Assembly: GCF_021353235.1 (NCBI RefSeq)
Contig: NZ_JAJTWT010000002.1
Coordinates: 310,001-374,000 of the forward strand
Length of the DNA stretch: 64,000 nt
DNA from: Pelomonas caseinilytica
Lineage (GTDB): Bacteria > Pseudomonadota > Gammaproteobacteria > Burkholderiales > Burkholderiaceae_C
Reading direction: 5' to 3'
The notes beneath the pieces are model-generated. The model was not told where the DNA came from and made no database searches. It saw only the letters and a list, made by a program, of their open reading frames with translations. This document shows, piece by piece, positions 1 through 55,028 of this stretch. How positions within the stretch are numbered: position 1 is the stretch's first letter; the number at the start of each line of letters is the position of its first letter. The translations under genes were made by a program, and so were the position numbers.

Positions 1-1529
1 ACGGCGGCAGGCTGGGCAGCTACGACGTCGCCGCCTACCTCCGCCTGGGCGACACCGACGGCCAGCGAGAGACCGTCACGGCCGATCAGCAGACCCTGCT
101 CGACACCGTGTTCGGCACCCACGCCAGCCTCGCGCCCGGGCACATGAACACGGGCTTCAAGGCCGTGGACGCCAATGCCGAGGTCGCCCGCGACAAGTTC
201 CGCCTGCGCGCCAGCTACAAGCTGCGCGACGACCTGCAGACGGGTGCCGGCGTGGCCGCCGCGCTGGACCCCGTCGGCCGCTACCGCATCGAGCGCGTCA
301 CTTCGGACCTGTCCTGGTCGGACATCGACCTCGGCCCCGACTGGCGCGGCACGCTGACCGCCAGCTATCTGAGCTATGCGCAGACCTTCAACGTGCCGCT
401 GCAGCTCTTCCCGCCGGGGGCTTTCGGCGGCAGCTTTCCGAACGGCATGCTGGGCGCGCCGAGCAGCTGGGAGCGCCAGCTGCGGCTGGCGGCCGTGGCC
501 TCCTACGGCGGCTTCAAGGGCCACAGCCTGCGCCTGGGCGCCGGGCATGACGACCTCGACATGTACCGCACGCGGGAGCTGAAGAACTTCACCATCATCG
601 CCAGCGGCCCGGCCGTCGGCCTGCCCGTGCCCACGGCCGACGGCCAGCTCCAGGAGTTCCCCGCCGCGGCCTCCTTCGCCGAGCCCCACCGCCGCCAGGT
701 CAGCTATGTCTACGTGCAGGACGAATGGGGCGTGGCCAAGGACTGGACGCTGACGGCCGGCCTGCGGCATGACCGCTACTCCGATTTCGGCAGCACCACC
801 AACCCGCGCGCCGCCCTGGTGTGGGATGCCAACCTCGACCTCACGGTGAAGCTGCTCTACGGGCGCGCCTTCCGTGCGCCGGCCTTCACCGAGCAGTACA
901 GCATCAACAACCCCGTCATCCGCGGCAATGCCGCCCTCCGGCCCGAGACCATCAGCACCTGGGAGGCGGCGTTCTCCTGGCAGGTGCAGGCGGACGCCCA
1001 GCTCAACCTGAGCCTGTTCCGCTACGACATGAAGAACATCATCCGCACCACCGACGCCGGCGGCGGCACCGCCCAGTTCAACAACATCGGCGCCCAGCAT
1101 GGCAATGGCGTTGAGCTGGAGGGCCTGTGGGACGCGACACGCAAGCTGCGCCTGAGCGGCAACCTGGCGCTGCAGCACTCCATCGAGGACATGACGGGCA
1201 CGGACGCCGGCTACGCGCCGCGCCTGCACTTCAACCTGCGGGCCGACTGGAGCCTGACGACCGGCTGGCGGCTCAGCGGCCAGGTCAACCACGTTGCCGA
1301 GCGCAAGCGCTCGGCCGGCGATGCGCGCGCGCCCATCCCTGACTACACGACGGCCGACCTGACGCTGCGCACGGCGGCCGGCAAGGACGGCTGGTCCTTC
1401 GCCGCCTCGGTGCGCAACCTCTTCAACGCCGATGCCCGCGAGCCCAGCATGGCGCCGGGCCTGGCCCTGCCCAACGACATCCCGCTGGCGCGGCGCTCAC
1501 TCTACGTTCAGCTCGCTTACCGCCTCTGA
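1..1529 (+). CDS. TonB-dependent outer-membrane receptor, C-terminal part (5' end outside window)
   Basis: The frame is open from base 3, so the start lies upstream of the window; about 508 residues are visible. The visible part is the beta-barrel of a TonB-dependent receptor: alternating aromatic/polar strands, the family-typical RAFRAPAFTEQYS followed by NNPVIRGNAALRPE in the middle, and closing strands ending in LYVQLAYRL. Plug and TonB box are not visible, so the substrate (siderophore, cobalamin, carbohydrate or other) cannot be told. The last 33 bases overlap the 3' end of the convergent P450 gene. There is no transporter or regulator next to it in the window. Confidence 0.9.
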   Translation, partial: GGRLGSYDVAAYLRLGDTDGQRETVTADQQTLLDTVFGTHASLAPGHMNTGFKAVDANAEVARDKFRLRASYKLRDDLQTGAGVAAALDPVGRYRIERVTSDLSWSDIDLGPDWRGTLTASYLSYAQTFNVPLQLFPPGAFGGSFPNGMLGAPSSWERQLRLAAVASYGGFKGHSLRLGAGHDDLDMYRTRELKNFTIIASGPAVGLPVPTADGQLQEFPAAASFAEPHRRQVSYVYVQDEWGVAKDWTLTAGLRHDRYSDFGSTTNPRAALVWDANLDLTVKLLYGRAFRAPAFTEQYSINNPVIRGNAALRPETISTWEAAFSWQVQADAQLNLSLFRYDMKNIIRTTDAGGGTAQFNNIGAQHGNGVELEGLWDATRKLRLSGNLALQHSIEDMTGTDAGYAPRLHFNLRADWSLTTGWRLSGQVNHVAERKRSAGDARAPIPDYTTADLTLRTAAGKDGWSFAASVRNLFNADAREPSMAPGLALPNDIPLARRSLYVQLAYRL

Positions 1530-8821: not shown

Positions 8822-10027
8822 TTACCAGCTGACCTCCCGGTCGGGCGTCGCGCCGATCTTGTGGATGGACAGGTCCGCGCCCTCGAACTCCTGCTCGGCG
8901 TCGAGCCTGAGGCCGACGACGGCCTTGATGGCGCCGTAGACCGCGAAGCCCCCGGCCAGGGCCCAGGCCACGCCGCCCAGCGTGCCGGCGAACTGCGCGC
9001 CCAGGCTCACGCCGCCGATGCCGCCCAGGGCCTTCTGGCCGAAGATGCCGCAGGCGATGCCGCCCCAGGCGCCGCACAGGCCGTGCAGGGGCCACACGCC
9101 CAGCACGTCGTCGATCTTCCAGCGGTTCTGCGTGAGGGTGAAGAACTGCACGAAGAGCCAGCCGGCCACGCCGCCGGTGACCAGGGCGCCCAACGGATGC
9201 ATGACGTCAGAACCCGCGCAGACGGCCACCAGGCCGGCCAGCGGCCCGTTGTAGGCGAAGCCCGGGTCGTTGCGGCCCAGCAGCACGGCCACCAGCGTGC
9301 CGCCCACCATGGCCATCAGCGAATTGACCGCGACCAGGCCCGACATCTTGTCCAGCGTCTGCGCGCTCATCACGTTGAAGCCGAACCAGCCCACCGTCAG
9401 CACCCAGGCGCCCAGGGCCAGGAAGGGGATGCTCGACGGCGGATGGGCGCTCATGGCGCCGTCCTTGCGGTAGCGGTTCATGCGCGGGCCCAGCAGCAGC
9501 ACGGCGGCCAGCCCGATCCAGCCGCCCACCGCATGGACGACGACGCTGCCGGCGAAATCGTGGAACTCGGCGCCCGTGGCCGCCTTCAGCCAGGCCTGCA
9601 TCCCGAAGGCCTGGTTCCAGGCGATGCCCTCGAAGAAGGGATAGACGAAGCCGACGATGACCGAGGTGGCCGCCAGCTGCGGGCCGAAGCGCGCCCGCTC
9701 GGCGATGCCACCCGAGACGATGGCCGGGATGGCCGCCGCGAAGGTCAGCAGGAAGAAGAACTTGACGAGCTCATAGCCGTTCTTCTGGGCCAGCGTCTCG
9801 GCGCCGGTGAAGAAGTGGGTGCCGTAGGCGATGAGGTAGCCGACGAGGAAATAGGCCAGGGTCGAGACGGCGAAATCCACCAGGATCTTCACCAGCGCAT
9901 TGACCTGGTTCTTCTTGCGCACGGTGCCCAGCTCAAGGAAGGCGAAGCCCGCATGCATGGCGAGCACCATGATGGCGCCCAGGAGGATGAAAAGCGCGTC
10001 CGCGCCTTGTTTGATCGATGACTCCAA
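8822..10027 (-). CDS. amtB: Ammonium transporter AmtB
   Basis: 401 residues with about 11 hydrophobic segments and Amt features: [31 protein letters not shown] with the pore His, and a second pore-His region at [12 protein letters not shown]. It conducts ammonium/ammonia into the cytoplasm. No GlnK gene is adjacent. Start choice: TTG at 10027 gives [13 protein letters not shown], the family's usual N-terminus, and GGAG lies 6 bp upstream. ATGs at 10066 and 10120 are in frame, but the 10120 one lies upstream of the sigma-54-like promoter at 10098-10112, which argues against it. Confidence 0.93.
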
Positions 10028-49332: not shown

Positions 49333-50430
49333 TCATTGCTGCTTGACGGCGTCCACCAGCTTCTGCAGCAGCGCCAGCGTCTGCAGGTTGATGCGCTCCA
49401 GGCGCATCATGCTGCGCTCCAGGCGTTGCAGGCGGTCGGTATGGTGGTCGGCACTCAGCGCCGCGATCTCGGACGACAGGCCCTCCACCTCGGCGACGCT
49501 CATCTTCAGCTTGTTCACGTCCAGGGCACCCGGGGCGCTGTCCAGGGCGCCGGGGCGGCTGTCGGGCAGGCGCGCGGGCACGCTGTCGAGCGGGCTGACG
49601 TCGCTGTGGCGCGGCACCTCGCTCTCCTGGGCGATGTCGCGCAGCACCTCCTTCACGTCGGCCAGCGTCAGGTGGGTGCGGCCCTGCATGAAGCCCAGCA
49701 GCAGCAGGCGGTCGCACAGGCGGTTGATGCGGCGCGGGATGCCGTTGCTGGCCTTGTGGATGGCCGGGAAGGCGTCGTGGTCGAAGGTGGGCTTGCCGGT
49801 GGAGCCCGCGCACTTCAGGCGGTGCTCCATGTAGCGCTGGGTCTCGTCCTCGTCCAGCGGGCCGATGTGGCAGGTGGCCGCGACGCGCTGGCGGAACTGC
49901 TCCATTTCGGGCTTCTGCAGGATGCCGCGGAACTCGGGCTGGCCGACCAGGAACGTCTGCAGCAGCGACTGGTTGGCGAACTGGAAGTTGGAGAGCATGC
50001 GCAGCTCCTCCACCGCACGCGGCGTGAGGTTCTGGGCCTCGTCGACGATGAGCAGGCAGCGCTTGCCCTGGGTCACCTGGTTGACGAAGAAGGCCTCCAG
50101 CGTCATCAGCAGCTCGGACTTGGGCGCGTCCTTCACGCGCACGCCGAAGGCGGCGCCCACCATGCGCAGCGTGTCCTCGGCATCGAGCTGGGTCGTCACG
50201 ACGTTGCCGATGACGACATTGCTGCGGTTCAGGCTGTCGAGCAGGCCGCGCAGCAGCGTCGTCTTGCCGGCGCCGATCTCGCCGGTGATGACGATGAAGC
50301 CGTCGTTGCGCAGCACGCCGTAGTCCAGGTAGGCCTTGGCCCGGCGATGCTGCTTGCTGCCGTAGTAGAAGTTCGGGTCCGGGCTGAGCTGAAAGGGCTT
50401 GCTGCTCAGGCCGTAGAAGGCTTCGTACAT
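49333..50430 (-). CDS. XrtA-associated AAA+ ATPase (GspA/ExeA-like)
   Basis: 365 residues from MYEAFYGLSSKPFQLSPDP. Walker A GEIGAGKT (50-57), Walker B CLLIVDEAQNLTPRAVEEL, then a C-terminal helical tail with coiled-coil character (about 310-360). The family is associated with general-secretion-like assembly (TIGR03015 as I recall it). The N-terminal extension up to 50556 reads through the intergenic repeat and is not part of the gene. Confidence 0.93.
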   Translation of the reverse strand: MYEAFYGLSSKPFQLSPDPNFYYGSKQHRRAKAYLDYGVLRNDGFIVITGEIGAGKTTLLRGLLDSLNRSNVVIGNVVTTQLDAEDTLRMVGAAFGVRVKDAPKSELLMTLEAFFVNQVTQGKRCLLIVDEAQNLTPRAVEELRMLSNFQFANQSLLQTFLVGQPEFRGILQKPEMEQFRQRVAATCHIGPLDEDETQRYMEHRLKCAGSTGKPTFDHDAFPAIHKASNGIPRRINRLCDRLLLLGFMQGRTHLTLADVKEVLRDIAQESEVPRHSDVSPLDSVPARLPDSRPGALDSAPGALDVNKLKMSVAEVEGLSSEIAALSADHHTDRLQRLERSMMRLERINLQTLALLQKLVDAVKQQ

Positions 50431-50471
50431 GTCAGTTGTCCATAGCGCTACGCAACACCCACAGTTGATGA

Positions 50472-50584
50472 AACCCGGGTATTGCGGGCCGAGCGCTGGG
50501 CCGCTCCCGAGCCGGCCCGCGCTGGCGATGTGCTTGCGGCTCAATGCCGCAAGCATCGCCGTCCCCGCGGGGGACCGACCGGAC
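50472..50584. repeat. Structured intergenic repeat, copy A
   Basis: A 113-bp block about 90 % identical by eye to 53197-53310. Hairpins: GCGGGCCG (50484-50491) with CGGCCCGC (50513-50520) around a 21-base loop that contains AGCG/CGCT, and GCTTGCGGC (50532-50540) with GCCGCAAGC (50546-50554), both perfect. It lies between the barrel gene stop and the ATPase start, in the leader of the ATPase gene. Confidence 0.75.
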
Positions 50585-50630
50585 TCGCTCGCGTTCAGCG
50601 ATGCGAGGGTGGGCGAGGGGCTGTTTCACT

Positions 50631-52196
50631 TCAGAACAGTTGCGTCAGGTTGGCGTAGACCGCATTCTCGGAGTAGGACGTGGTGCCGGCGAAGCGGCTG
50701 TGGCGCCCTCCGAGCATCACGTTCAAACGCGTGCCGAGGCGGGCGTTCCAGTTGGCGGTGAGGCTGGTCAGCCTGGCGGAAGGGGTGCCGGCGTCGCCCG
50801 TCGTCTCCTGGCGCGAGGCCGTCAGCGAGGCGCTGGACGAGGGCGTCAGCTGGTGGCTGCCCGTGAGCGAATACGAGCGCTGCTCCACGTGGGCGGTGTT
50901 GGCGAGGTCGCCCTGGTTCAGGTTGCTGCCCAGGCGGCTGGTGACCGAGCGGCTGACCTGGGCGGCCAGCGTGGTGCGGGCGCCCTGGAGCGTGATGCTG
51001 GCAAGCTGGCTGTGCAGCCGGCTCGGCCCCGTGGACAGGAAGCCCAGCGCCGCCGGGGCGTCGGGCGAGATGCCCTGCGCCTGCAGGAAGGCGCGCACCA
51101 GCACGTCGCGCTTGACCGGGTCGGGTTCCAGCGAGGCGAACATCAGGAAGAACTGGTCGTAGTTGCTGCGCACGCCGCCGGTGGCGCCGGTGTTGCCCAG
51201 CATGGTGGAGACGGTGTCGGACAGCCGCCAGACCGAGCGCGACATGCGGTGCTCGAAGGTCAGGCCGTGGCTGTTGCCATAGTTGTGGCGCTGCCAGTCG
51301 CCGTTGACGCGGGTGCGCGCCGTCGGCGTCCATTGGCCGGTGACGCCGCCGGTGACGCCGCTCTGCGAGCTGCCGCCGAGGAAGTCGTTGCGCTCGCGGC
51401 CGGCGTTGGCCGTGAAGAACCAGTCGGGGTCGGGGCGATAGTTCAGGCCACCGGTCATCGTCGAGCTGCGGTTGGAGGCCGCCGAGGACGACTTGACCTC
51501 CTGGGTGCTGGCGCGCAGCCACCAGGCCAGCAGGCCGCCGTTGAGCTGGTTGACGACGAGGGAGCCGCCGGTGGCGCGGCTGTCGCCGAGGCTGCTGCCG
51601 CGCACTTCGGTGCGGCTGAAATCACCCCGCAGGTCGAAGCTGGCCAGCCCGCCCAGCTGGCCGTGCAGCAGCGGCGACACGCTCAGCGTGCCGGTCTCGT
51701 GCTGGTTGGAATTGGCGAGGTTGGAAATCGCGCCTTGGGACCCCAGGGTCGGCGTGCTCTGCAGGCCGAAGGCCGAAGCGTTCTGCTGGCCGATGCTGGC
51801 GCGCATGTCGACGAAGAGGGTGCGGCTGATCAGCTCGGCCTGGCCGCTTGCCGAGAGCGAGTTCTGCACCCGCGAGGGCTGGTCGGACTTGATGTAGGCG
51901 ATGCCGTTGAGCGAATAGTCCAGCGTGCCGCGCACAGCGCCGCCGGTGCTCCTGATGGTGATGCCGGGCGACACGGTGGTGATGAGCGCCGCATCCTTGT
52001 TCCGGTCCGACAGGGTGAGGTTGTCCGTCCAGGTCTCCATCACGGTCAGGCGGGGCTGGATGGAGGTGCCCCCGCCCTGGCCCGCCGCAACGGCGAGACG
52101 GGCATCCTGGGCATGCGCGGCCATCGCGCAAACGGCGATGGCGAGCGCGAGCGCGAGGCAGCGCGGCTCAGCTCTGCGCCGAGTCATTGCCACCAT
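50631..52196 (-). CDS. Outer-membrane beta-barrel protein, PEP-CTERM/XrtA-associated
   Basis: 521 residues from the ATG at 52196; ATG at 52187 is equally possible. Signal peptide (CLALALAIAVCAMAAHAQ, cleavage AHA-Q). The rest is amphipathic beta strands with Ser/Thr/Asn-rich loops and ends in an aromatic (NLTQLF), as expected of a barrel. It fits TIGR03016. It may serve as an exopolysaccharide pore. The 5' end overlaps the last ~29 bp of the kinase gene, just past the Tyr-Gly repeat. Confidence 0.9.
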   Translation of the reverse strand: MVAMTRRRAEPRCLALALAIAVCAMAAHAQDARLAVAAGQGGGTSIQPRLTVMETWTDNLTLSDRNKDAALITTVSPGITIRSTGGAVRGTLDYSLNGIAYIKSDQPSRVQNSLSASGQAELISRTLFVDMRASIGQQNASAFGLQSTPTLGSQGAISNLANSNQHETGTLSVSPLLHGQLGGLASFDLRGDFSRTEVRGSSLGDSRATGGSLVVNQLNGGLLAWWLRASTQEVKSSSAASNRSSTMTGGLNYRPDPDWFFTANAGRERNDFLGGSSQSGVTGGVTGQWTPTARTRVNGDWQRHNYGNSHGLTFEHRMSRSVWRLSDTVSTMLGNTGATGGVRSNYDQFFLMFASLEPDPVKRDVLVRAFLQAQGISPDAPAALGFLSTGPSRLHSQLASITLQGARTTLAAQVSRSVTSRLGSNLNQGDLANTAHVEQRSYSLTGSHQLTPSSSASLTASRQETTGDAGTPSARLTSLTANWNARLGTRLNVMLGGRHSRFAGTTSYSENAVYANLTQLF

Positions 52197-53154
52197 ATCC
52201 GTAGCCGTAACCGTAACCGTAGCCGTAGCCATACCCATAGCCGTATCCGCCCGCGGCGTTGGGGCTGGCCTGGTTGAGCAGCATCATCTTGACCGGGCAG
52301 GTCTCGATGGTGGCGAGGGCCTGCTGGACGGCGCTCTGCGGCGTCTTCTCGGCATGGACGACGACGATGATCTGACCCATGTGGGAAGCCAGCACGCGCG
52401 ATTCCGTCGTCAGCAGCAGCGGCGGGGAGTCGAAGATGATGATGCGATCGGGGTAGCGCTTGGCCATGTCGTCGAGCAGGTGGCTCATGGCATCGCTGGC
52501 CAGCAGCTCGGTGGCGCGCGGATGCGGCGTGCCACTGGGCAGGATGGTCAGCTTCTCGACGTTGGTGCGCAGCAGCACCTCGGACATGTCGACGCGCTCC
52601 TCCAGAACGTCGAGCAGGCCGGGCCCCTGCGGCAGGCCGAGCATGCGCAGCACCGAAGGCCTGGCCACGTCGGCGTCGACCAGCATGACGGTGTTGTCCA
52701 GTTCGGCGGCGATGCTCAGCGCCAGGTTGATGGACGTGAAGCTCTTGCCCTCGCCGGCCAGTGCGCTGGTCACCATCAGCAGATTGGCATGGTTGATGGT
52801 GGCGGCGCCCTTGCCCATCGCGTTCTTGATCAGCGGACGCTTGATCACGCGGTACTGGTCGCCCGTGTGCGAGCGCGGCATGTGCGGCATCAGGAAGCCC
52901 TGGGCCGCCAGCGCGACGACGTCGAGCTCGACGCGCTTGGATGAGATGTTGGCGCCGTCACCCTGCACCGACAGGCCGACCTTGGGCGGAGCCTCGGCGG
53001 CAACGGGGGCGGCCACAACGGGTGCGGCAGCCGGCGTGGCCGGCACGGCGGCCGGGGGCGTGCCGGGCACGACCTGCTCGTCGCCGGGGAGCACCACGCC
53101 GGCCTGGCGCAGTTGCTCGAGCCGCTGGGCGGCCTGTTCGATCAAGCTCGTCAT
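52168..53154 (-). CDS. Bacterial tyrosine autokinase, XrtA-associated, with Tyr-Gly tail
   Basis: 328 residues. Walker A ALAGEGKS (131-138), Walker A' VMLVDADVARPS (156-167), Walker B IIIFDSPPLL: BY-kinase catalytic core. The C-terminus ends in nine Tyr alternating with Gly, then GNDSAQS. Such Tyr clusters are autophosphorylation sites. It pairs with the chain-length protein encoded upstream. An N-terminal Ala/Pro-rich linker (30-56) precedes the kinase core. TIGR03018 group (as I recall). Confidence 0.95.
   Translation of the reverse strand: MTSLIEQAAQRLEQLRQAGVVLPGDEQVVPGTPPAAVPATPAAAPVVAAPVAAEAPPKVGLSVQGDGANISSKRVELDVVALAAQGFLMPHMPRSHTGDQYRVIKRPLIKNAMGKGAATINHANLLMVTSALAGEGKSFTSINLALSIAAELDNTVMLVDADVARPSVLRMLGLPQGPGLLDVLEERVDMSEVLLRTNVEKLTILPSGTPHPRATELLASDAMSHLLDDMAKRYPDRIIIFDSPPLLLTTESRVLASHMGQIIVVVHAEKTPQSAVQQALATIETCPVKMMLLNQASPNAAGGYGYGYGYGYGYGYGYGYGGNDSAQS
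52195..52245 (-). repeat. Hexameric tandem repeat coding for (Tyr-Gly)n
   Basis: Nine TAY-GGN units in a row. Codon variation (TAC/TAT, GGC/GGT/GGA/GGG) shows the array is not freshly expanded, but slippage is possible. In another frame the same DNA lies just upstream of the start of the outer-membrane barrel gene. Confidence 0.85.
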
Positions 53155-53196
53155 GTCAGATATCCATTCCGCGTGCGCGGCACCCACGACGCATGC

Positions 53197-53310
53197 AACC
53201 GGGGTATTGCGGGCCGAGCGCTGGGCCGTTCCCGAGCCGGCCCGCGTTGGCGATGTGCGCGCGGCTCGACGCCGCAAGCATCGCCGTCCCCACGGGGGCT
53301 GAGGCCGGAC
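53197..53310. repeat. Structured intergenic repeat, copy B
   Basis: 114-bp block matching copy A. The first hairpin (GCGGGCCG with CGGCCCGC) is kept, the second is weaker (GCGGC with GCCGC plus mismatches). It lies between the chain-length gene stop and the kinase start, the same kind of position as copy A. Confidence 0.75.
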
Positions 53311-53383
53311 ACGGCAAGTCCTGTGGACTCGCCGTGCCTGCTGAAGGGCAGCCGCTCTGTCGGCTGCGCGGTCTGCAAGACCG
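53311..53383. repeat. Three consecutive hairpins beside repeat copy B
   Basis: Stem 1: 53311-53321 with 53325-53335 (11 bp, one mismatch, loop TGT). Stem 2: GCAGCCG (53348-53354) with CGGCTGC (53361-53367). Stem 3: CGGTC (53369-53373) with GACCG (53379-53383). They are absent from copy A, where the two blocks flanking them are close together. Confidence 0.6.
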
Positions 53384-53438
53384 ACTGGACTTGCCGGCGT
53401 TCAGCCGGAGCGAGACCGGGCGAGGGGCTTGCTTCATG

Positions 53439-55028
53439 TCAGATCACCTGCCGGCTGAGTTGCACGGCCAGCACCGTGAGCGCGATGGCGAACATCACCA
53501 ACAGCCCTCCGGCACCTGCGGAAAAACGGATCAGGTCGACGCGCTGGCGGGCCCGGTCAGCGTCGGTCACCAGGCGGGTCACCACGCCGAGGATGGGGAG
53601 CTCGACGCGGGCGCGCAGGTCGTCAGCATCGTGGAAGACCGGCCTGAGCTGGCTGGCCGCGAAGGTCGTGAACACGCCCACGCCCAGGGCCGCCGCCATG
53701 GCGCCGGCCAGCAGCAGCAGGCGGTTGGGCGCGACTGGCTTGGGGTTGGCGCGCGGCGGGTCGATGACGCGGAAGTCCGCCACGCCGGAGGCCACGTCGA
53801 GCTCGCCCGAGATGGAGGCCTGCTCGCGCCGCTGCACCAGTTCCTCGTAGTTGCGCTTGTGGATGGCGTAGTCGCGGTTGAGCTGGGCCGCCTCGGCTTC
53901 GATCTGGGGCGCCGTCTTCAGCGCCGCCAGGGCCTGGGCATAACGGCCCGAATACTCGTCAACACGGGCTCGCAGCGAGGCGACCTGCACCTCGGTCGTC
54001 GCCAGGATGCGGGTCAGCTCCTGCGAGGCCAGCGAGCCGGAGCTCTGGCCCACGGCGACCGTCGGCGTGTTCATGGCGGCCTTGCGCAGTTCGGCCTGCT
54101 CGCGCTTGCGCTGCTCCTCGAGGTCCTTGATGAGCTTGCGGGTGGCGATGATGTCCGGGTGCTGGTCGGTGTAGCGCTGCAGCAGGGCGTCGAGGTTGCG
54201 GCGCTGGTCGGCCAGGCGGGCGTCCAGCTCGGGCGTGGCGACGTTGGTGCTGGACTCCTGCAACAGGCTCTGCGTCGTCGTCTGGGCGCCACCGCGGGCC
54301 TTCTCGGCTTCGAGCTGGGCCTTGGCAGCGTCGCGGGCATTCACGGCCTCGCGGTATTCGAGGCGGGCGCGCTCGAGCTGGCCGCTCAGTTCGGAAATAT
54401 GGGCCGCGGCATCCTTGCCGTCGCCGGACATGTTGGACAGGTTCTTGAGGCGGAATTCCTTCAGCCGCGTCTCGGCCTCCTCGAGCTTGGCCTCGTAGGC
54501 CTTGATCTGCTCGTTGATGAAGGTGGCGGCCGTCGAGGTGTCCTTGCGCGAGGCGCCGAGGCTGGACTCGACGAAGATGGACACCAGGGACTGCACGACG
54601 CGCTTGGCCGTCTCGGGGTCGCTGTCGCGGTAGCCGAGGATGTAGAGGTTGTCGCGTCCGCTGCTCTGGATGGACAGGTTGCTGGTCACCGTCTCGATGG
54701 TGGCCTCCTGCTGCGCCTTGGACTGGTTCTTTAGGTCCAGGTCGGCCATGCGGACGAGCTTCTCGACGTTGGGCCGGCTGATCAGCGTGCGGCTGAGCAT
54801 CGTCACCTGCTGCTCTACGTTGGGCTGCACCGCCAGGCCCGACATCAGCGGCTTGAGGATGGACTGGGTGTCCACGTAGATGCGGGCGCTGGCCTCGTAG
54901 CGATCAGGCAGCACGAACACGACCACGGCGCCGACGATGCCGGCCACCCAGGCCACGACCAGGCCCACCCAGCGGTATTTCCACATCCGCCGGACGATGA
55001 TCAGCAACTGGGCAATCAGCAATTCCAT
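53439..55028 (-). CDS. Exopolysaccharide chain-length determinant (Wzz/PCP family), XrtA-associated
   Basis: 529 residues from MELLIAQLLIIVRRM. TM1 about 20-42, a periplasmic domain with long coiled coil (about 170-400, with FRLKNLSNMSG and LQRYTDQHPDIIATRKLI), and the C-terminal PPRANPKPVAP before TM2 (about 435-460). A further hydrophobic C-terminal stretch follows. It regulates polymer length together with the BY-kinase. A TTG 6 bp upstream is another possible start. TIGR03007 (as I recall). Confidence 0.95.
   Translation of the reverse strand: MELLIAQLLIIVRRMWKYRWVGLVVAWVAGIVGAVVVFVLPDRYEASARIYVDTQSILKPLMSGLAVQPNVEQQVTMLSRTLISRPNVEKLVRMADLDLKNQSKAQQEATIETVTSNLSIQSSGRDNLYILGYRDSDPETAKRVVQSLVSIFVESSLGASRKDTSTAATFINEQIKAYEAKLEEAETRLKEFRLKNLSNMSGDGKDAAAHISELSGQLERARLEYREAVNARDAAKAQLEAEKARGGAQTTTQSLLQESSTNVATPELDARLADQRRNLDALLQRYTDQHPDIIATRKLIKDLEEQRKREQAELRKAAMNTPTVAVGQSSGSLASQELTRILATTEVQVASLRARVDEYSGRYAQALAALKTAPQIEAEAAQLNRDYAIHKRNYEELVQRREQASISGELDVASGVADFRVIDPPRANPKPVAPNRLLLLAGAMAAALGVGVFTTFAASQLRPVFHDADDLRARVELPILGVVTRLVTDADRARQRVDLIRFSAGAGGLLVMFAIALTVLAVQLSRQVI

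Follow-up and report, generated by a model that had tools for sequence, protein, structure and literature searches.

A dispersed hairpin-forming repeat of Pelomonas caseinilytica and its relatives, with reading frames that bridge neighboring genes in operons

The window, a 64,000-nt stretch of the Pelomonas caseinilytica genome, contains two copies (A and B) of a hairpin-forming repeat that fill two gaps between genes of an XrtA/PEP-CTERM polysaccharide operon on the minus strand. The repeat is probably a dispersed, non-autonomous structured element, similar to repetitive extragenic palindromic (REP) sequences and miniature inverted-repeat transposable elements (MITEs), that is tolerated or used in operons because translational coupling is kept. 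It is present in high copy number, displays covarying hairpins, is present or absent at orthologous sites and is placed at gene ends. In tight operon gaps it displays a statistical preference for the frame that bridges the two adjacent genes. Between operon genes the copies tend to preserve a small open reading frame (mini-ORF) that begins at the upstream stop codon and ends at the downstream start codon, and the repeat may therefore lodge there without uncoupling the translation of the two genes.

Copy A with its tail makes up the whole 200-nt gap between the stop codon of an outer-membrane protein gene and the start codon of an ATPase gene (positions 50431-50630, minus strand), and copy B with its tail makes up the whole 284-nt gap between the stop codon of a chain-length protein gene and the start codon of a kinase gene (53155-53438, minus strand). 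Mini-ORF A (50432-50629, minus strand, 65 codons) begins with a GTG 1 nt past the upstream TGA, and its own TGA is 1 nt ahead of the ATPase ATG. Mini-ORF B (53156-53437, minus strand, 93 codons) begins with an ATG 1 nt past the upstream TGA and terminates with a TGA 1 nt ahead of the kinase ATG. The layout of a termination-reinitiation junction is therefore found at the window copies, with 1 nt on each side; it is not found in unbridged gaps. In a BLAST search of the window with copy A (166-nt query), copy B is the sole other strong match, with 91.5 % identity over 106 nt (E 3e-39), in keeping with the two copies and the approximately 90 % identity given in the original prediction. An additional 51-nt piece of copy A is matched at 53379-53429 (80 %), and all remaining matches are at most 39 nt long with E values of 0.002 or worse. 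The alignment is split in two pieces, and thus copy B holds an extra middle segment of about 80 nt (53299-53378, minus strand) that does not align to copy A and in which the reading frame stays open. Mini-ORF B keeps the two junction distances of mini-ORF A despite this extra sequence, and the difference in gap length, 84 nt, is exactly 28 codons.

Placement relative to genes was assessed with 37 copies from the same genome that score above 90 bits, comprising the 30 best hits and the copies from sampled stretches and the window. The 5′ end of the repeat is at a same-sense gene in 35 of the 37, and in 33 the stop codon is within 7 nt of the first position of the profile; one of the two same-sense copies beyond 7 nt is copy B, with its extra segment. 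The next gene is co-directional in 24 copies and convergent in 11, and the other two copies lie reversed. When the sampled stretches and the window are taken alone, 15 of 16 copies are behind a same-sense gene, 13 of them within 7 nt. As a background, stop codons represent 291 of the 808 CTGA sites (36 %) that are either non-coding or stop codons.

There is also a short form of the repeat, which is without the hairpin termed h3, is reversed in orientation, and has its GCCCC end mostly 4 nt from a start codon. Among 40 short copies that were fetched for the frame test described below, from seven genomes of one genus, 33 are antisense between co-directional genes, 3 are between convergent genes, 2 are sense, 1 is between divergent genes and 1 is inside a called gene; the distance to the start codon is exactly 4 nt in 27 of 34. 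Nine more regions from the genus of the window yielded three short copies (L387, from the same genome as the window, L391 and L394), all in the short-form orientation, and one long copy (L390); in the other five no hairpin was found by the search pattern. In L394 (approximately positions 620-1285) the short copy is an in-frame 3′ extension of a long ORF, which then ends with an ATGA at the next gene. This long ORF presumably encodes a KdsC-like phosphatase.

A gap was counted as bridged when a mini-ORF leads from the upstream stop (ATGA or TGA-N-RTG) to the downstream start. Mononucleotide and dinucleotide shuffles of the ORFs are uninformative on frame, and they were therefore replaced by a shift test in which operon gaps of 60-230 nt were scored natively and with 1 or 2 nt added in the middle of the gap. 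Copy B is outside this count because its 284-nt gap exceeds the 230-nt limit. In the discovery set 36 of 65 repeat gaps are bridged natively, and 9 and 8 are bridged after addition of 1 and 2 nt, respectively. In the genome of the window the native bridges are found in 8 of 11 sense gaps and in the single antisense gap, and in other genera they are found in 17 of 36 and 10 of 17 gaps, respectively. With a second method of finding repeats, the numbers for native, +1 and +2 are 8 of 11, 2 and 3 (own genome, sense), 1 of 1, 0 and 0 (own genome, antisense), 19 of 41, 6 and 3 (other genera, sense) and 10 of 17, 0 and 3 (other genera, antisense). Copies fetched after the discovery result served as a test set, and 32 of 45 gaps are bridged natively, with 3 at +1 and 5 at +2. 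Short-form test gaps account for 24 of 30 antisense (3 at +1 and 4 at +2, p 6e-7) and 1 of 2 sense (0 and 0), and gaps from the genus of the window account for 6 of 12 sense (0 and 1) and 1 of 1 antisense (0 and 0). Gaps without the repeat are bridged natively in 24 of 178 cases vs. 12 at +1 and 6 at +2, and the preference for the native frame is stronger in repeat gaps than in other gaps in both the discovery and test sets. At the short-form test loci, gaps that are free of the repeat are bridged natively in 2 of 10 cases and in none after a shift. An ATGA overlap is present at both ends of the mini-ORF in 18 of the 30 short-form test gaps, and 23 of the 30 are of the length class that this needs. 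When the frame was fixed and the interior of the gap was shuffled by dinucleotides, bridged gaps vs. those expected are 9 of 21 vs. 8.3 for sense copies of the own genome, 22 of 39 vs. 12.8 for sense copies elsewhere, and 13 of 18 vs. 9.7 for antisense copies elsewhere. Given the frame, openness is only moderately above chance, and thus the signal resides mainly in the frame.

Insertion polymorphism at the window loci was followed at the ATPase and kinase junctions in 17 close relatives. The repeat is found at the ATPase junction in two (L045 and L049) and is missing from the other 15, where the distance between stop and start is 1 nt (L043 and L055), 4 nt (L056) or 7 nt (L057), or where a repeat-free spacer of 80-86 nt is present immediately ahead of locus position 10001 (eleven relatives, L041, L042, L044, L046-L048 and L050-L054). 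None of the 17 carries a copy at the kinase junction; stop and start are 1 nt apart in 16, and L057 was unmatched by the search pattern. The suggestion that the repeat acts as RNA to set the relative amounts of the two NTPases encoded downstream of copies A and B is unsupported, because copies follow many unrelated genes and because the ATPase site is empty in 15 of 17 relatives and the kinase site in all 17. A local effect on the coupling of neighboring genes is plausible, but it would belong to the repeat wherever it sits in an operon. Among the 13 relatives that have a spacer at the ATPase junction, a bridging mini-ORF is found in 11. In two of these it is the repeat, and in nine (L041, L042, L044, L048 and L050-L054) it is a repeat-free ORF of 25-27 codons whose middle portions show no evident similarity to one another. 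The spacers of L046 and L047 are without a bridging ORF, and only 1 of 26 shifted versions of the spacers is bridged. As most relatives bridge the spacer despite its differing sequence, a translated spacer seems to be maintained at the ATPase junction.

A filled and an empty site are also found in another genus, where a short copy is present in one genome (G109) and missing in a second (G217), whose two genes overlap by ATGA. At the filled site ATGA flanks the insert on both sides, and in a third genome (G220) the same place is taken by an unrelated spacer. Direct repeats are found on both sides of copy B (ATCTGACATGA) and of the short copy of G109 (AGTCATGAAC), and from their sequences these suggest a target duplication. 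Over 37 copies the match between flanks is only weakly above chance (p 0.024), and a general target-site duplication of 9-10 nt, although promising at these two sites, was not retained. In L391 (approximately 1155-1330, minus strand) the sequence beside the short copy is imperfectly duplicated in direct orientation on its two sides over about 36 nt (CAGGTGATTTC...), possibly a trace of how that copy arrived.

Secondary structure was modeled from 58 selected long-form copies of several genera, which were picked by way of a 37-nt hairpin and then aligned. The RNAalifold consensus, inferred from the very alignment on which covariation was scored, has 42 pairs, of which 19 show changes on both sides, and 96.9 % of cells are paired. 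None of 500 shuffled controls reaches the observed covariation values, and slid versions pair in 30-47 %. Strong covariation is found in helices 2, 4 and 5, which correspond to hairpin h1 and both parts of h3. The original prediction had proposed a look at the stems with a structure model and had held an absence of covariation to be damaging; the stems covary, and that objection therefore falls away. The perfect 8-bp and 9-bp stems that it described in copy A are indeed present, the 8-bp stem being perfect in both copies and the 9-bp stem in copy A only. The folding z-score of copy A is -3.8 in gene sense and -3.0 for the opposite strand. Selection may therefore act on either strand, and on RNA or on single-stranded DNA. 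With respect to strand polarity, approximately 19 G-U cells vs. 31 A-C cells were counted by eye among the paired positions.

The genome of the window has at least 40 matches to the repeat: among 200 BLAST candidates 40 were scored and all 40 match. Across 0.8 Mb of stretches sampled from this genome, a profile made from 30 copies detects 23 matched pieces, which fall at about 21 places, in addition to the window copies. The repeat is found in all 20 genomes of the genus that were searched, which bears out the proposal of a genome-wide, REP-like family. A long-form query matches 52 of 200 genomes of the taxonomic family, many solely through the 37-nt hairpin, and a short-form query matches 75 of 200, which represent 56 of 141 genera. 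In a sample of 200 genomes across the order there are three matches, one being the own genome and two being weak matches of 44-50 nt, and the short form is nearly absent. Thus in the samples searched the repeat hardly occurs outside one GTDB family of the Burkholderiales. Head-to-tail arrays are found in three genomes (G214, G145 and G172), where the units measure about 89, 127 and 154 nt. The copy A query gave no matches among 72,556 plasmid records and 50,697 phage records at an E value of 1e-5, and one exact variant of the 37-nt hairpin had no match among viral contigs. No window match to Rfam 15 was found at the gathering score, and two weak matches (E up to 10, region 49500-55000) miss both copies. 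A description of the repeat was not found in the open-access literature searched, where sequence strings matched merely a herpesvirus paper, with one string; the original prediction likewise did not recognize the repeat as a described family.

The mechanism that may underlie the bridging frames is one in which ribosomes that finish the upstream gene reinitiate at the mini-ORF, pass the hairpins while translating it and then start again at the downstream gene. The coupling that a spacer of 80-200 nt should abolish would thereby be kept, and possibly tuned; the passing ribosome would unfold the hairpins, which may in this way hide or uncover the following start site. Several observations weigh against an interpretation based on coupling. 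Eleven of the 37 own-genome copies are between convergent genes, where coupling is irrelevant, and thus coupling cannot be the whole story. Gaps remain unbridged in 29 of 65 discovery cases and 13 of 45 test cases, and repeat-free gaps also favor the native frame. For the own-genome sense copies the shuffled sequences are bridged nearly as often as the real ones once the frame is given. The test set consists of selected high-scoring BLAST hits from a small number of genomes (seven of one genus and three of the genus of the window), and its copies are therefore not mutually independent. The gene calls rest on a simple codon-model caller trained on the P. caseinilytica genome itself, and the near-invariant 37-nt hairpin (helices 6 and 7) shows no double change. 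The convergent copies, the own-genome shuffles and the lean of repeat-free gaps to the native frame, together with the fact that GC-rich sequence is often stop-free, would all be expected of a structured repeat that is simply selfish or neutral and well tolerated, with placement at gene ends reflecting harm elsewhere and open frames being a by-product of GC-richness. We consider such a repeat unlikely: the native frame beats the shifted frames by more than it does in other gaps in both sets, ATGA is found at both ends in the 18 test gaps, and adjacency to stop codons is far above the 36 % background. Retained translational coupling is the favored interpretation. Its extension to a portable coupling cassette used throughout the family, which spreads mainly into overlapping stop/start junctions of operons, occurs in either orientation and in short and long form, and has mini-ORFs that hand over ribosomes and hairpins that tune the hand-over, is offered tentatively and may well not hold.

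An element acting at the 3′ end of RNA, either a transcript stabilizer or an insulating hairpin past stop codons, would account for the long form beginning directly behind stop codons, convergent pairs included, and for the strong folding (z -3.8) and covarying stems. It is improbable, as the short form is reversed and at start codons, and the frame preference is left unexplained. The bridging short-form ORFs of one genus might also be genuine small proteins with multiplied genes, as 18 of 23 are in a common frame with an ending like RAERRAAPKPARxPSGDRP...EG. However the remaining five are in other frames (3 and 2), the long form is read on the opposite strand, and third codon positions are no more variable than the others (0.027 vs. 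0.068 and 0.031, in 32 of 37 copies). A conserved peptide was rejected on the frames and codon positions; judged from these sequences selection probably does not act on the peptide itself, and a small-protein family is hardly credible. Mobilization as a REP family, or as bacterial interspersed mosaic elements (BIMEs), by a REP-associated tyrosine transposase (RAYT) of the Y1 type is suggested by the palindromic, high-copy nature of the repeat, by its proximity to coding regions, where REPs often lie (PMC3733652), and by the presence of a Y1_Tnp match over the family cut-off in all 20 genomes of the genus (including G000:C23:648793-649119, L031, and L161-L181). However only 1 of the 31 Y1 loci read, from 40 listed matches, has the repeat in its flanks, a density like that of chance, and Y1 is present in 50 of 75 repeat-bearing vs. 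97 of 125 repeat-free genomes of the family. In addition, G214 has repeat arrays yet no Y1 match, the arrays are head-to-tail, and by inspection no GTAG (or CGTC) tag was seen at the ends GCCCCTCG and CGGCCCGC of the consensus, whose unit is 80-200 nt. A RAYT origin is thus not supported, Y1 transposases being neither near the repeat nor associated with it, and we regard it as very improbable.

The repeat is like REP and BIME sequences in being small, palindromic, in high copy number, mostly intergenic and near or overlapping coding regions; the palindromic, high-copy and extragenic features by which REPs are recognized are all present, with few copies inside called genes or ORFs. It is unlike them in its length of 80-200 nt with several hairpins, in the lack of a visible GTAG tag and of linkage to RAYT, in its head-to-tail arrays and in its gene-bridging frame. 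Rickettsia palindromic elements (RPEs) are palindromic repeats translated within ORFs (PMC10969869 and PMC3733652). The repeat shares with them its position within reading frames, but RPEs are in frame inside genes, whereas here the repeat is mostly its own mini-ORF between two genes, L394 being the one in-frame extension of a gene. As with MITEs, the repeat is small and non-autonomous and shows insertion polymorphism, and one MITE, Chunjie, is reported within an operon whose structure is undisturbed (PMC10969869). A possible difference from MITEs is that no clear terminal inverted repeats were seen on inspection of the ends of the 80-nt consensus, and no parent transposase was found, the parent element having been sought among Y1 transposases alone. 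The ends of the mini-ORF resemble termination-reinitiation junctions (ATGA or TGATG) in being short overlaps of stop and start or 1-nt distances. In such systems coupling is almost lost once the distance is about 20 nt (PMC10666635). They differ from the case here, where coupling is putative and the intermediate ORF comes from a dispersed repeat instead of a cellular gene. The nearest precedents are REPs that provide stop codons and RPEs that are translated inside genes.

The original prediction gave the repeat a length of about 113 bp. The repeat is present, but it is longer, with a core of about 140 nt and, in full copies, about 200 nt including the tail. Full copies have the layout (C)TGA-RRTGAAAC-N-GCCCC... 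core ...GTTTCAT-hairpin-GGACAACTGA, and other copies are without the outer parts. In copy A the core (GCCCC...GGCCCGC; 50484-50621, minus strand) is conserved across genera. Within it are hairpin h4 (50484-50520, minus strand), the 37-nt module that is best conserved and also found in the short form of other genera, and hairpin h3 (50532-50554, minus strand), which has the 9-bp stem GCTTGCGGC/GCCGCAAGC, covaries among copies and is missing from the short form. The motif GGGCGAGGGGCT, thought to lie just before the stop of the upstream gene, is outside that gene; read in gene sense as AGCCCCTCGCCC it is the 5′ part of the repeat and lies 8 nt past the upstream stop in copy A and 9 nt past it in copy B. 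Another repeat-like sequence, with CACAGAGGCACAGAGG / CACAGAGGCACGGAG, directly adjoins two copies on their right side (L009 and L023), and elsewhere (L128, near 10801) it comes after a TGAAAC behind a stop codon.

The copies were correctly placed by the original prediction between a stop codon and an NTPase start, with the orientation to be amended. The genes are on the minus strand, and therefore the copies lie 3′ of the stop of the upstream gene (TIGR03016 or TIGR03007) and 5′ of the start of the ATPase (TIGR03015) or kinase (TIGR03018) gene. Upstream of copy A is the PEP-CTERM-associated outer-membrane protein (TIGR03016; 50631-52124, minus strand) and downstream is the XrtA/PEP-CTERM-associated ATPase (TIGR03015; 49333-50430, minus strand). 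Copy B is preceded by the XrtA polysaccharide chain-length determinant (TIGR03007; 53439-55028, minus strand) and followed by the XrtA-associated tyrosine autokinase (TIGR03018; 52168-53154, minus strand). The starts of both upstream genes are those of the codon-model caller. Read along the minus strand, the cluster consists of an export protein, TIGR03007, copy B, TIGR03018, TIGR03016, copy A, TIGR03015, a deacetylase and a FemAB-like protein, with exosortase A further on.

Repeats of the REP type are usually read as DNA sites or as 3′-end hairpins. If the interpretation favored here is true, a repeat that ribosomes themselves translate, with coupling kept, would account for the tolerance of dense operons to insertions, and a single genome would provide a large natural series of variants of one coupling element. 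The case also touches on the distance over which a ribosome can move after termination before it has to restart.

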